Positions 40,144 through 43,574 of a stretch of DNA of 52,606 nt are shown here, in pieces. Each line of letters starts with the position of its first letter. Within the stretch, counting starts at the first letter, position 1. The translations under genes were made by a program, and so were the position numbers. The stretch is from the NCBI GenBank assembly GCA_903890485.1, contig CAITBM010000068.1, positions 1-52,606 on the forward strand. The letters are read 5' to 3'. The notes below the pieces were generated by a model. The model did not search any database and was not told where the DNA came from. It saw only the letters and a program-made list of their open reading frames with translations. Source of the stretch: an uncultured Opitutaceae bacterium (GTDB lineage Bacteria > Verrucomicrobiota > Verrucomicrobiia > Opitutales > Opitutaceae).

Positions 40144-40554
40144 ATGCCGAAGCTCACCGAAGCCGCGATCCGCAGGCTCGAAAAATCCGCCCGGGCCGCC
40201 GCGGGCCGCGCCTACGCCCCCTACTCGAAATTTCCCGTCGGCGCCGCCGTTGTCGGGGGTTCCGGAAAGATCTACAGCGGCTGCAACGTCGAGAACGCCG
40301 CGTTCGGCCTGTGCAACTGCGCCGAGCGAACCGCCATCTTCTCGGCGGTCGCCGCCGGCGAGGGCTCGATCACCGCAGTGGCCATCTACACGCCGACGTC
40401 GCTGCCCACGGCCCCCTGCGGGGCCTGCCGGCAGGTCATTAACGAGTTTGGGCCGGACGCCCTGGTAATCAGCGTCTGCGACTCGAAAAACCGGATCGAG
40501 ACGCGCCTCTCGGCGTTGCTTCCCGCGGCCTTTGGCCCCGGCGACCTCGCCTAG
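40144..40554 (+). CDS. cdd: Cytidine deaminase
   Basis: 136 residues, the small homotetrameric type. Zinc-site residues are C59 and catalytic E61 in NCAERTAIF and C92 and C95 in PCGACRQVI. The N-terminal AYAPYSKFPVGAA and CNVENAAFGL are standard. It deaminates cytidine and deoxycytidine for pyrimidine salvage. The last 21 codons are the left copy of a 68-bp repeat whose other copy lies at 42199-42266, beyond the hipBA genes. The reading frame runs through the repeat intact, so the enzyme should be functional. Confidence 0.96.
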   Translation: MPKLTEAAIRRLEKSARAAAGRAYAPYSKFPVGAAVVGGSGKIYSGCNVENAAFGLCNCAERTAIFSAVAAGEGSITAVAIYTPTSLPTAPCGACRQVINEFGPDALVISVCDSKNRIETRLSALLPAAFGPGDLA

Positions 40555-40556
40555 GC
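40489..40556 (+). repeat. Left copy of 68-bp direct repeat (3' end of cdd)
   Basis: It encodes NRIETRLSALLPAAFGPGDLA and the stop of cdd. Compared with 42199-42266 at a fixed offset of 1,710 bp it differs at seven positions (40492, 40506, 40516, 40518, 40521, 40542, 40548). All seven changes are synonymous. Identity falls away immediately before AAC and after CTAGG, so the ends are sharp. Confidence 0.9.
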
Positions 40557-40584
40557 CGCCTCTTGGCCACGGTTTGTCGGCCGT

Positions 40585-41799
40585 TCAGGCTTTTAGAGCG
40601 GACGAGACGCGTTCGCGAGACGCTTTGGAAACCCCGGCCCTCCGTGCAAAGACGGGCCATCGGCGTACCGAGGACCCGATTTCCTCAAGGATAGCCTTCG
40701 CCCTTGAATCGCTCAGGCCCGCGCCCTTCGCAAGGGCCAGCAACTCCTTTTCGCCCGGCAGTCCATTGCCGGCGACGGTCATGTTGTGCTGCCCGTTAAC
40801 ACCGCTTGAAAACGTGATGTCAAATGCGGGCGAGAGCGCCCACTCGCCACTGGGGGACGCGAGAAATGCGTGATTTTTAACGTGGTCGTCCCGGTTGTGT
40901 GCCAGGACATTGAATGCCGCCCTGCGATAGGCCTGCTCCACCTGCTTGAAGTCGCGCGTGACCCCGAATACGACGGCGAGAAACTCCTGATAGTCCCTGT
41001 TGGGGTGCTGGAAATGGGAATGCACCATTCCCCCGAAGGTGTGCGTGTGGATCAGGGCTCCTTCCGGGCCCATGTCGAAGCGCCGCACACCGAAGAAACT
41101 CCCCTGTTCTGTCACGAACAATCGGGTCGGTGGAACAGTGACGCCGGCGGTCCGTGCCATTTGAGCATAGGCTTCCTCGATGCTCCCTGCGTCCTCGGGA
41201 TCCCCCTTGGATCGGAACTTTACAATCCAATGCTCATATCCGTCCTTCGCATCCAGAATGTCCGTCGTCACCTTGTTTCTCGCCGGGTTAAAGGCGACGA
41301 AAACCTTGGGCCGCGATCCGCTTGACGAACCGCCGGCGGCGCGCAGGGCAGGCAGCGCTTCCTCCGGACTACCTGCGACAATGCGCTCGGCCTGGGCGGC
41401 CACGCTTGCAAGGTCCAGCGCGAGGTCCCGCTGCATCCCGTCGTCATCGGCGGGTTCATAGCAGAGGGCCCCTGCGCCCCGGTTTCCGATATAAGACAAT
41501 CTGTCTAGCGGAGAGAGGTTCTCGGGTGCGATTCCCTTCGATTGAAAGTAACGATCCGTGAGAAGGCGTCCCCACCCGTCGGGGAGCGAGTCGTCGAACA
41601 CGCCGTACAACCCCTCAAAAATCAGCGTTGGTTCACGTTTGAGTCCTGCGCTGAGCGGCAAAAAATACGGGGAGACGGCAAAGCCGTCGGTGAGCCACCG
41701 CGAATCGTATTCAAAATAAATTTCTCGGTTTGGTGTTTCTGCGAGCGTGCCCACGGTCCGGCCGGCAAGGCTAACTTTGAGTTTGCGAAGCGTGCTCAC
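40585..41799 (-). CDS. hipA: HipA-type serine/threonine kinase toxin
   Basis: 404 residues. The N-terminal HipA domain (RKLKVSLAGRTVGTL to about 110) is followed by the kinase core: FEYDSRW, GRLLTDRYF, YIGNRGAGALCYEP, the nucleotide loop region GGSSSGSRPKVFVAFN, HWIVKFRS with the ATP-binding Lys, catalytic loop HNRDDHVKNHAF (D304, N309), and SPAFDI with the metal-binding D327. All key residues are present, so it should be active. Family members phosphorylate targets such as GltX to arrest growth. It overlaps hipB by 4 bp (ATGA), with antitoxin first. It lies between repeat copies of the cdd end and is oriented against cdd. Confidence 0.9.
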   Translation of the reverse strand: MSTLRKLKVSLAGRTVGTLAETPNREIYFEYDSRWLTDGFAVSPYFLPLSAGLKREPTLIFEGLYGVFDDSLPDGWGRLLTDRYFQSKGIAPENLSPLDRLSYIGNRGAGALCYEPADDDGMQRDLALDLASVAAQAERIVAGSPEEALPALRAAGGSSSGSRPKVFVAFNPARNKVTTDILDAKDGYEHWIVKFRSKGDPEDAGSIEEAYAQMARTAGVTVPPTRLFVTEQGSFFGVRRFDMGPEGALIHTHTFGGMVHSHFQHPNRDYQEFLAVVFGVTRDFKQVEQAYRRAAFNVLAHNRDDHVKNHAFLASPSGEWALSPAFDITFSSGVNGQHNMTVAGNGLPGEKELLALAKGAGLSDSRAKAILEEIGSSVRRWPVFARRAGVSKASRERVSSALKA

Positions 41800-42128
41800 C
41801 GAAAGGTTTTACCACGCTTGCGCTCAGGCGGATTTAGCCGCTCCAGCTGCGCCATGGTTTGAGGGACTATGGCCCCAGGCGAAAACAGCTTCTCAAAATC
41901 GGGAACCCCCTCAAGAACCACGGCCAACTTTGCCAGAGTTTCTAGCCCAATTTGCCCGGAAACCTCAAAATGCTTGAGCGTCCACGGGCTTACTCCAGCG
42001 CGTCTCGCGAGTTCTTCCCGCGACCAGCCACGCTGGAGCCGTCTGGCCTTCGCGCGGACGGCTATCCCCTTTGTGATAACCAGCGGTGCTGTGCCAAGAA
42101 AGGATAAGATATTGTCCTTTGGTGTCAT
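41796..42128 (-). CDS. hipB: HipB-type antitoxin, Xre-family DNA-binding protein
   Basis: 110 residues. A helix-turn-helix of the Cro/CI type is seen at about 30-60 (REELARRAGVSPWTLKHFEVSGQIGLETLAKLAVVL). The N-terminal ~20 residues and C-terminal ~30 residues are extra to the core; the C-terminus may contact HipA. It is the first gene of the module, overlapping hipA by 4 bp. Two palindromic sites, one 15 bp upstream of the start and one overlapping codons 3-10, are good candidates for HipB operators. Confidence 0.85.
   Translation of the reverse strand: MTPKDNILSFLGTAPLVITKGIAVRAKARRLQRGWSREELARRAGVSPWTLKHFEVSGQIGLETLAKLAVVLEGVPDFEKLFSPGAIVPQTMAQLERLNPPERKRGKTFR
42099..42120. promoter_or_regulatory. 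Imperfect palindrome inside the hipB start region (putative HipB operator 2)
   Basis: AAAGGATAAGATATTGTCCTTT pairs at 9 of 11 positions around its centre. It shares an AAGG...ATATT...CC pattern with the perfect palindrome at 42143-42156, so both may bind the same dimeric repressor. Confidence 0.45.
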
Positions 42129-42142
42129 TAATAGGATTTAAA

Positions 42143-42156
42143 GGTAATATATTACC
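42143..42156. promoter_or_regulatory. Perfect palindrome upstream of hipB (putative HipB operator 1)
   Basis: GGTAATATATTACC is a perfect 14-bp palindrome, 15 bp upstream of the hipB ATG, in an AT-rich stretch. This is the expected place for autorepression by HipB, which in other systems binds palindromes in its own promoter. Confidence 0.55.
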
Positions 42157-42198
42157 CATTAAGTTCAAGGAAAAGTGCTTCTTTTGGGATGGGATGAC

Positions 42199-42266
42199 AA
42201 CAGGATCGAGACGCGACTCTCGGCGCTTCTCCCCGCGGCCTTTGGCCCCGGTGACCTGGCCTAGGG
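42199..42266 (+). repeat. Right copy of 68-bp direct repeat (orphan cdd 3' end)
   Basis: It still encodes (D)NRIETRLSALLPAAFGPGDLA and a stop in an open frame, but has no upstream deaminase sequence. The stop TAG (42262-42264) overlaps the hisS stop in CTAG. It is therefore probably the ancestral cdd end, displaced by the insertion. Seven synonymous differences separate it from the left copy. Confidence 0.85.
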
Positions 42267-43574
42267 CCCGGAAAAAAACGCGAGGACGCTCTCGGCGACA
42301 GCCGCGGCCGGGAATTCCTGCTCGGAACGGTCGCCGAGGTCCCTGAGCTTAACGACCCCTCGCGCGAGCTCCTCGCTCCCGTAGATCAGCGCCACCTTGG
42401 CGCCGGACTCGACGGCTGCCTTGAACTGCTTTCCAAAGGCGACTTCCTTCATCGGGTAGTCCACGCGGTAGCCGATCGCCCTGAGGGCGAGGATGTCCGC
42501 GAAGGCACTCTTCCTCTCCGCCTCGCCTCCGATCACGCAGTAGACGTCCGGAGCCTGCGAGACCACCGGGGTAAGGCCCCGCTCGTCCAGGAGAAGGGCG
42601 AAGGTCATGTCCCCGATGGCAAAGCCCACGGCGGGCAGGTCCGAACCCCCGAGCTTCCCGACCAGGTCGTCGTAGCGTCCCCCGCCGGCCAGGGCCCTCA
42701 ACTCGCCCTTCCGGTCAAAGGCCTCGAACACGAAGCCCGTGTAATAGGCCAGACCCCGGACGACGCCCAGGTCGACCTGCACGAAGGCGGAGAGGCCCAT
42801 GGCGGAGAGCCCGCCCAGGAGTTTCCTCCAGTCGGCCAGGCGCGCGGTGATCGCCGGGGACGCGCCTGCGCCGAGCGCCGACTCGATCTCGTCGAACGAG
42901 CGGATCGCGAGGAAAGAGAGGACGCGCGCCTTCGTGGCCGGATCAAGCGGACCGAAGCGTTCCTCGTAGCCCTTGAACGCCGCGTCCCCATTTCGCTCAA
43001 ACTTGTCGACGGCACCCAAGAGCGCGCGGATCTTCTCCTCGTCAAGCCCGAGGGAGCCGAGGAAGTGAAACCAAAGATTGCGGTCGCTCAGGCGGATGCA
43101 GAAATCGTCAGGGGTGAGCCCAAAGGCCCGCATGCACTGGATCTGGAGCGCGATCAGCTCAATCTCGGCCTCCGGGCCCGCCTCGCCGAAAATATCCGCG
43201 TTGAACTGGAAGAAACACCGGCCCCTGCCCTTCTGCATCCGCTCGTAGCGGTAGAATTCGGCGATGCTAAACCACTTGATCGGGCGCTTGAGGGAGCCGG
43301 CGCGCTCGCCCACGAGCCTGCAGACGCTCGGCGTCATCTCGGGCCTGAGCGCCACCTCGCGCTTCCCCTTGTCGGTGAAGCTGAAAAGCTGGGCCTCGAT
43401 CTCGTCCCCCGACTTGGCCCGGTAGAGGTCCAGGGGCTCCAGGACGGGGGTGTCGTACTCTACGAAGCCGAAAGCGGCAGCCGTCTGCCGCCAAATGCGA
43501 AAGATGTGGTTACGTTTCGCAAGATCTTCAGGGTAAAAGTCGCGAAACCCGGGCAGGGTCTGAAACATGGCCAT
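42261..43574 (-). CDS. hisS: Histidyl-tRNA synthetase
   Basis: 437 residues, class II. Motif 1 is around FGFVEYDTPVLEP, motif 2 is FYRYERMQKGRGRCFFQFNADIFG, and motif 3 is GFAIGDMTFALLL. The His-specific sequences LGVVRGLAYYTGFVFE and LAGGGRYDDLVGKLGG are present, and a C-terminal anticodon-binding domain starts near 345. It charges tRNA-His. Its 3' end overlaps the orphan cdd-end repeat. Confidence 0.97.
   Translation of the reverse strand: MAMFQTLPGFRDFYPEDLAKRNHIFRIWRQTAAAFGFVEYDTPVLEPLDLYRAKSGDEIEAQLFSFTDKGKREVALRPEMTPSVCRLVGERAGSLKRPIKWFSIAEFYRYERMQKGRGRCFFQFNADIFGEAGPEAEIELIALQIQCMRAFGLTPDDFCIRLSDRNLWFHFLGSLGLDEEKIRALLGAVDKFERNGDAAFKGYEERFGPLDPATKARVLSFLAIRSFDEIESALGAGASPAITARLADWRKLLGGLSAMGLSAFVQVDLGVVRGLAYYTGFVFEAFDRKGELRALAGGGRYDDLVGKLGGSDLPAVGFAIGDMTFALLLDERGLTPVVSQAPDVYCVIGGEAERKSAFADILALRAIGYRVDYPMKEVAFGKQFKAAVESGAKVALIYGSEELARGVVKLRDLGDRSEQEFPAAAVAESVLAFFSGP

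Follow-up and report, generated by a model that had tools for sequence, protein, structure and literature searches.

A hipBA toxin-antitoxin module between two silently different ends of the cytidine deaminase gene in an Opitutaceae genome: a probable scar of one-sided recombination between alleles of related species

How does a toxin-antitoxin module come to lie between two copies of the 3' end of a housekeeping gene that differ from each other at silent positions only? The question is raised by a stretch of 52,606 nucleotides from an uncultured Opitutaceae bacterium (assembly GCA_903890485.1, contig CAITBM010000068.1), analysed here as a whole and referred to as the window, in which open reading frames and Pfam matches give the gene order kbl, cdd, hipA, hipB, hisS, in the orientations that the initial annotation of this DNA had implied. 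The parts of the locus are the following.

40144 to 40554, plus strand: cdd, cytidine deaminase, 136 aa, an open reading frame completed by repeat copy 1 (Pfam PF00383, 4.6e-20)
40489 to 40555, plus strand: repeat copy 1, the last 21 cdd codons, the stop and one further base; the copy in use
40555 to 40584, no strand: spacer of 30 bp from the cdd stop to the hipA stop (15 bp in its counterpart in the relative G008, as judged from sequence)
40585 to 41799, minus strand: hipA, serine/threonine kinase toxin, 404 aa (Pfam PF07804, 2.5e-41; PF13657, 8.6e-17)
41796 to 42128, minus strand: hipB, helix-turn-helix antitoxin, 110 aa, an open reading frame (Pfam PF01381, 1.4e-10)
42129 to 42198, no strand: region of 70 bp upstream of hipB, bordering the orphan cdd end at a putative non-homologous join
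42142 to 42157, no strand: palindrome GGGTAATATATTACCT upstream of hipB, a possible hipB operator by predicted function
42199 to 42265, plus strand: repeat copy 2, the orphan cdd 3' end, with a CTAG common to it and the hisS stop
42261 to 43574, minus strand: hisS, histidyl-tRNA synthetase, 437 aa (Pfam PF13393, 1.2e-50)

A repeat search between 38.5 and 44.5 kb of the window recovers the two cdd ends as the sole outstanding repeat family, a direct repeat with 90% identity (40489-40555 and 42199-42265) that measures 67 nt and not the 68 bp first reported. The rest of that description was correct: the spacing of 1710 bp, the 21 residues plus stop, the CTAG shared with hisS and the position of hipBA between the copies all stand, and a codon comparison of the copies reproduces the seven differences, all of them silent. 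These fall on 7 of the 66 coding bases and are spread over six codons (CGG/AGG, CGC/CGA, TTG/CTT, CTT/CTC, GGC/GGT and CTC/CTG), both copies encoding the peptide NRIETRLSALLPAAFGPGDLA followed by a stop. The orphan lies within no visible gene, its TAG overlapping the hisS stop inside the CTAG, and the flank to its left is unlike the flank to the left of copy 1. An alignment of the cdd tail to the cdd-hisS gap of the window reaches a score of 95, the best of 60 shuffles giving 28; no third copy of the cdd end was found in the 3.1-Mb draft genome to which the window belongs, the third-best match having an E-value of 0.18.

The module enclosed by the repeats has the layout of a type II HipBA toxin-antitoxin system, that is, a two-domain HipA kinase (Couple_hipA and HipA_C) and a gene for an HTH_3 antitoxin in one operon, with the end of hipB overlapping the start of hipA by 4 bp. 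The hipA frame is open and convergent with cdd. The motifs RDDHVKN and LSPAFDI of the protein align weakly (27.9 bits in total, 6 bits for the second domain) with TDGHAKN and LTPFYDI of the solved HipA 2wiu, counterparts that we take to be the catalytic kinase motifs of HipA. Palindromes similar to that of the window are present upstream of hipB in two relatives (G008, GGGTATTGGGATACCC; G033, GGGTAACCAGTTACCC). Because the 70-bp hipB upstream region with its palindrome precedes copy 2, the unit looks complete, and judged by sequence hipBA resembles ordinary toxin-antitoxin pairs, with open frames and with its upstream palindromes retained.

With respect to the origin of the two cdd ends, the simplest account, for which a donor is unnecessary, is a local duplication within one genome followed by drift or by partial gene conversion, and the small number of sites would permit a silent-only outcome. 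However, under a uniform mutation model the probability that an in-place duplication, with the functional copy held to silent changes and the orphan drifting, yields seven silent-only differences is about 0.003 (0.007 when computed by codon), or about 6e-5 if all seven arose in the unconstrained orphan, values that are uncorrected for the fact that the feature was picked because it looked odd. Moreover, the orphan has acquired a minimum of one silent change independently (at codon 18) and shows no missense changes or indels relative to copy 1. Gene conversion, which the initial annotation had offered as an alternative, does not help, as it erases differences and does not make silent ones. We consider a local duplication highly improbable.

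Comparison with related genomes points instead to two lineages. Over the 66 sites, the copies differ from each other at 7 positions, each of them differs from G008 at 11, both differ from G002, G011, G004, G003 and G001 at 12 to 16, and each differs at 19 from G012 when this is placed in register (G012, G010, G007, G009 and G006 are out of register and did not serve as outgroups for polarising codons). Codon 15 reads TTT in both copies and TTC in 6 of 6 outgroups. Because they show the fewest mutual differences and have this TTT in common, the copies are probably each other's nearest relatives, on the weak phylogenetic signal of 66 bp. Copy 2 has the derived state at codon 18, where all six outgroups agree with copy 1; at the first position of codon 10 copy 1 is probably derived, five of the six agreeing with copy 2. 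For codons 6 and 11 the commonest outgroup base is in neither copy, most outgroups having other residues at codon 6 and one of them sharing the base of copy 1 at codon 11. Silent changes have thus probably accumulated on both copies since their split. By a count made by eye, 4 of 14 four-fold codons (29%) differ between the copies, compared with 42 to 50% of the four-fold cdd sites between the genome under study (G000) and eight relatives, where four-fold sites are near saturation; this suggests, from few sites, that the second lineage was nearer than any genome compared here. The silent-only probabilities and the outgroup comparison together favor the proposal of the initial annotation that coding selection in two lineages shaped these ends, both of which probably evolved as working genes and later came together in one genome.

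Which of the two ends belongs to the old junction is indicated by the gene neighborhoods. Many genomes of this family carry cdd next to hisS in convergent orientation, and in four genomes of the same genus (G002, G004, G003 and G001) their stops overlap by 4 bp, as do those of the orphan and hisS in the window. These are relatives free of hipBA in which cdd runs into hisS, as the initial annotation had anticipated, and because they have the same overlap, the orphan-hisS junction is probably the ancestral one. Six more relatives from the genus have both genes within reach, with gaps of 1681 bp (G008), 3164 bp (G012), 27, 14, 10 and -98 bp; G005, in which no cdd was found, and G009, whose contig ends, offer no junction to compare. 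A broader set of 69 relatives comprised these 10 same-genus genomes and 59 of 60 stretches (G030 was left out, its hisS lying outside the stretch). At least 250 bp separate the two stops in 49 of the 69, a share that is not a rate of occupation, the 60 stretches having been chosen by hand among the matches listed with a preference for wide gaps. Judged by eye only, the gaps often hold an ORF of roughly 265 aa that resembles an alpha/beta-hydrolase or one of roughly 670 aa that resembles a metallopeptidase.

The initial annotation had read the repeat as the attachment site of an element that uses the 3' end of cdd, with hipBA as a minimal cargo or one mobilised in trans, and had expected the same repeats around other cargo in relatives. 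After the exclusion of nine relatives with gaps of 14 bp or less, a second cdd end was sought in the cdd-hisS gap of the remaining 60, all with more than 20 nt, and was found in none of them, G008 included, the best relative scoring 31 against 95 for the window. That highest raw score belongs to G035, whose shuffles reach 32; in G178 (28 versus 21, with a 14-bp match) and G146 (27 versus 26) the best match exceeds that relative's own shuffles, and we read all three scores as chance across 60 tests. The wide gap of G012 holds a different ORF, of 971 aa, without the repeat.

The locus nevertheless resembles a site-specific element in some respects. At icd, prophage e14 and phage 21 replace the 3' end of the gene by a silently different one, and both encode an integrase and have a defined att core. 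The cdd locus is like these in the position of the repeat at a gene 3' end, in the gene left complete and in the silent-only differences, and a gene-end direct repeat is indeed present at both ends of the would-be element. In contrast to e14 and phage 21, no recombinase was found at cdd and the repeat is absent from the other occupied sites. Among the 43 window proteins of at least 90 aa, six of which match no family, none belongs to a recombinase family, in agreement with the first inspection, and tyrosine recombinases (PF00589) are encoded at 4 places in the genome, all on contigs other than that of the window. Among the papers listed by a literature search, none pointed to integration at cdd, an absence that carries little weight. 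Searches of viral contigs, phages and plasmids gave no convincing match for a carrier of the stretch, the one weak plasmid match to the 21-residue tail being in Rhizobium (NZ_CP063399.1, 18 residues, E 0.9). Three viral contigs bear Cdd-like genes with 43-56% identity.

A further observation that bears on the attachment-site idea comes from G008, in which hipBA occupies the same junction in the same orientation as in the window with only one cdd end; the initial annotation had itself named hipBA at this site with a single repeat copy as one of the findings that would refute it. The hipA gene of G008 stops 15 bp from the cdd stop and is broken by frame changes, and no residual cdd end was detected in the stretch between hipB and hisS (the whole gap scores 20, against a shuffle mean of 20.7). 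With this single copy, the repeat missing from the 60 relatives and from any third place in the genome, no recombinase family among the scanned window proteins and no convincing carrier, a site-specific element moved in trans is a most improbable explanation. Homology common to two allelic forms of the locus accounts for the repeat better than an att site does, and at cdd the evidence speaks against an integrative element of a new class.

G008 also appears to be a close relative at this locus. The trees join G000 with G008 as sisters for the HD gene (support 100/99), dGTPase (100/97) and hisS from residue 125 (99/97), as well as for kbl (92/89) and tdh (90/91), these last two not starred, and the N-terminal part of hisS likewise places G000 with G008 (77/76). 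The tree of hipA residues 235-403 has the form (G005,(G000,G008)), with support 91/87 and a long G008 branch, as expected of a decaying gene. Because five neighbor-gene trees and the hipA tree join the two genomes, their hipBA copies at the junction are plausibly orthologous. The cdd tree does not recover the pair, its best topology uniting G002 with G008 (44/26), and the pairing is not rejected (AU p 0.276); the ubiE tree, in which G000 stands beside G011 (60/75), and the hup tree contain no G008.

A further possibility that would yield direct repeats around the cargo, with one copy per lineage, is the integration of a circle bearing a cdd end and hipBA by a single homologous crossover of the Campbell type, along the lines of the circle model proposed for rhs tips (PMC2935791). 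Such a circle would have had only about 66 bp of homology available, the stretch has no match among plasmid or phage records, and the module of G008 lacks a second copy; we regard it as distinctly unlikely. The HipA subfamily itself is rare. An exact-peptide-pattern search of genome contigs, a method of low sensitivity, returned only a contig matching G008 and a 40% match from Sphingomonadaceae. Among 252 genomes of the family, an E-value limit of 1e-86, which can miss broken genes and which G008 with its hipA in pieces failed, left only G005 (a piece, 65%) besides the genome itself; at the same limit, 372 genomes of the order gave the own genome only. At more than 60% identity among 150 genomes of the family, the own genome aside, there were only G008 and an 83-residue piece at the end of a contig in G033. 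None of the contig, family and order searches produced a genome close enough to be the donor.

We propose, with a probability of about 0.7, that the window unites an occupied (cdd-hipBA) and an empty (cdd-hisS) allele from related species, joined by one-sided recombination. At least two forms of the junction exist in the genus, an empty one with overlapping stops and one occupied by hipBA lying tail to tail with cdd, and the window would be both forms fused. From the observed junction forms, the observed sister relation of G000 and G008 and the observed silent-only divergence we infer a transfer, the mechanism and direction of which might be as follows. A fragment from a closely related species would enter the cell; one of its ends would recombine homologously, and the other would join non-homologously beside the hipB upstream region. 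For an incomer made up of a cdd end and hipBA, the homologous end would lie within cdd or upstream; for one made up of a cdd end and hisS, it would lie within hisS or beyond. The product would in either case be a complete cdd, then hipBA, then the cdd end of the other lineage with hisS still joined to it. At its right edge, which is the cdd stop, the repeat would mark the point where homology between the alleles is lost, and at its left edge the non-homologous join, so that no attachment site is needed to account for these edges. The features to be expected of such an event are both in place: an anchor present as two diverged alleles that bear the mark of coding selection (66 bp), and an old junction kept behind the new cargo (the 4-bp overlap with hisS).

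The two possible incomers fit the identities and the trees equally well. We lean slightly toward incoming hipBA because an addiction module would tend to be kept once it had arrived. If the two copies are sisters with G008 outside, it would follow that one lineage lost hipBA precisely or that the site was filled repeatedly. An artefact in which contigs of two strains, with and without hipBA, were joined during assembly would give the same arrangement; the genome is a draft of 144 contigs, presumably a metagenome bin, and strains differing in hipBA are implied by one-sided recombination too. However, the window contains no N and the join bears no sign of a seam in its sequence, and we hold an assembly artefact to be very unlikely.

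One-sided recombination between alleles looks like a known kind of event in a new instance, and not like a new mobile element. Rhs tips are displaced to silent positions (Jackson et al., 2009, PMC2935791): as proposed here for cdd, a new end arrives with new cargo while the old one is left farther downstream as an orphan, and the process is confined to close relatives by its need for homology. The cdd locus differs in involving a housekeeping enzyme, an unchanged protein end, a toxin-antitoxin cargo and one event seen. For the arrays of orphan immunity genes of the Vibrio cholerae type VI secretion system, homology-facilitated illegitimate recombination is suggested (PMC5361080); it is shown to occur with a low frequency in Escherichia coli conjugation (PMC3240628), and both papers describe the mechanism as rare. 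One homologous and one non-homologous end, with remnants of the old allele downstream, are what it would have in common with the window.

The closest published pattern for an addiction module that we found is, as conveyed by secondary accounts, the insertion of restriction-modification genes with a long target duplication of about 100 bp (Nobusato et al., 2000, cited in PMC3874152, PMC1643837 and PMC3031569). In those accounts, as here, an addictive module lies between direct repeats of host sequence and is recognized by comparing related genomes. The copies in the window differ silently only, and one of them probably comes from another lineage. A true duplication of the target, the feature that the name of those insertions implies, is not what is found at cdd, where there are seven silent-only differences with changes apparently on both copies, which suggests that the 'duplication' consists of two alleles and not of a target and its copy.

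Silent-only divergence separates an imported allele from an in-place duplication with the use of a single genome, and the same test applied to repeat-flanked addiction modules could expose 'target duplications' as scars of one-sided recombination. We would entertain as a generalization, albeit an unlikely one, that modules like hipBA spread among related species tagged with the end of a neighboring core gene, no recombinase being needed. If that were true, the core-gene end would serve as a homology anchor that is rebuilt silently while the old end is left as a scar, and the long target duplications of restriction-modification genes would be the same phenomenon. Flanking repeats were scored at 29 hipA loci, the window being one of them, with 25 shuffles each (31 loci were tried and 2 were too short). 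Besides the window, four loci score above their own shuffles, namely L043 (52 versus 28), L036 (46 versus 32), L034 (36 versus 29) and L049 (32 versus 29). Of the first three, which were inspected, only L043 plainly has a gene-end repeat, with differences that are not silent-only; this locus, also a hipBA locus from the family and one with a scar at a gene start, could be a further instance.

In the relatives, the convergent ends of cdd and hisS are often separated by additional sequence: among 69 relatives, which were chosen to favour wide gaps, 49 carry 0.25-8 kb of other sequence at this position. Therefore, genes have been gained repeatedly at the cdd-hisS junction, and no gene-end repeats accompany these gains. 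One such occupant, in the same-genus relative G012, belongs to a family of large ORFs for which a single genome of the genus can contain as many as 20 matches (G010); in G005, another member of this family and a hipA from the subfamily of the window are in convergent orientation.

Large-ORF family loci
L054, 4543-7458 (G012:C30), member at the cdd-hisS junction
L127, 1-3158 (G005:C314), member convergent with hipA

The sister genome G008 carries hipBA at the same junction with a single cdd end. Because the hipA match is split over several frames and hipB aligns at full length in a single frame, the toxin seems to be decaying in this genome and the antitoxin to be retained.

Match in G008
L052, 1075-2606 (G008:C318), hipA and hipB matches

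Within the family, a second hipBA, L043, lies between two direct copies of a gene end; here the gene is metallophosphoesterase-like (identified by eye), and its 5' end is the repeated part. The complete ORF of this gene lies upstream of hipB, and an orphan start of approximately 20 codons follows hipA; the differences between the repeat copies are not exclusively silent. At a further hipBA locus, L036, a 23-bp direct repeat without mismatches has one copy between the two genes and the other directly after hipA; this repeat may be dispersed in intergenic regions of genome G141.

Direct repeats at hipBA loci (coordinates in script orientation)
L043, 464-516 and 2787-2842 (G149:C365), metallophosphoesterase-like gene 5' end
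L036, 1396-1418 and 2675-2697 (G141:C208), 23-bp repeat

Cdd-like genes (43-56% identity) are also present in three IMG/VR viral contigs (L142, L143 and L144).
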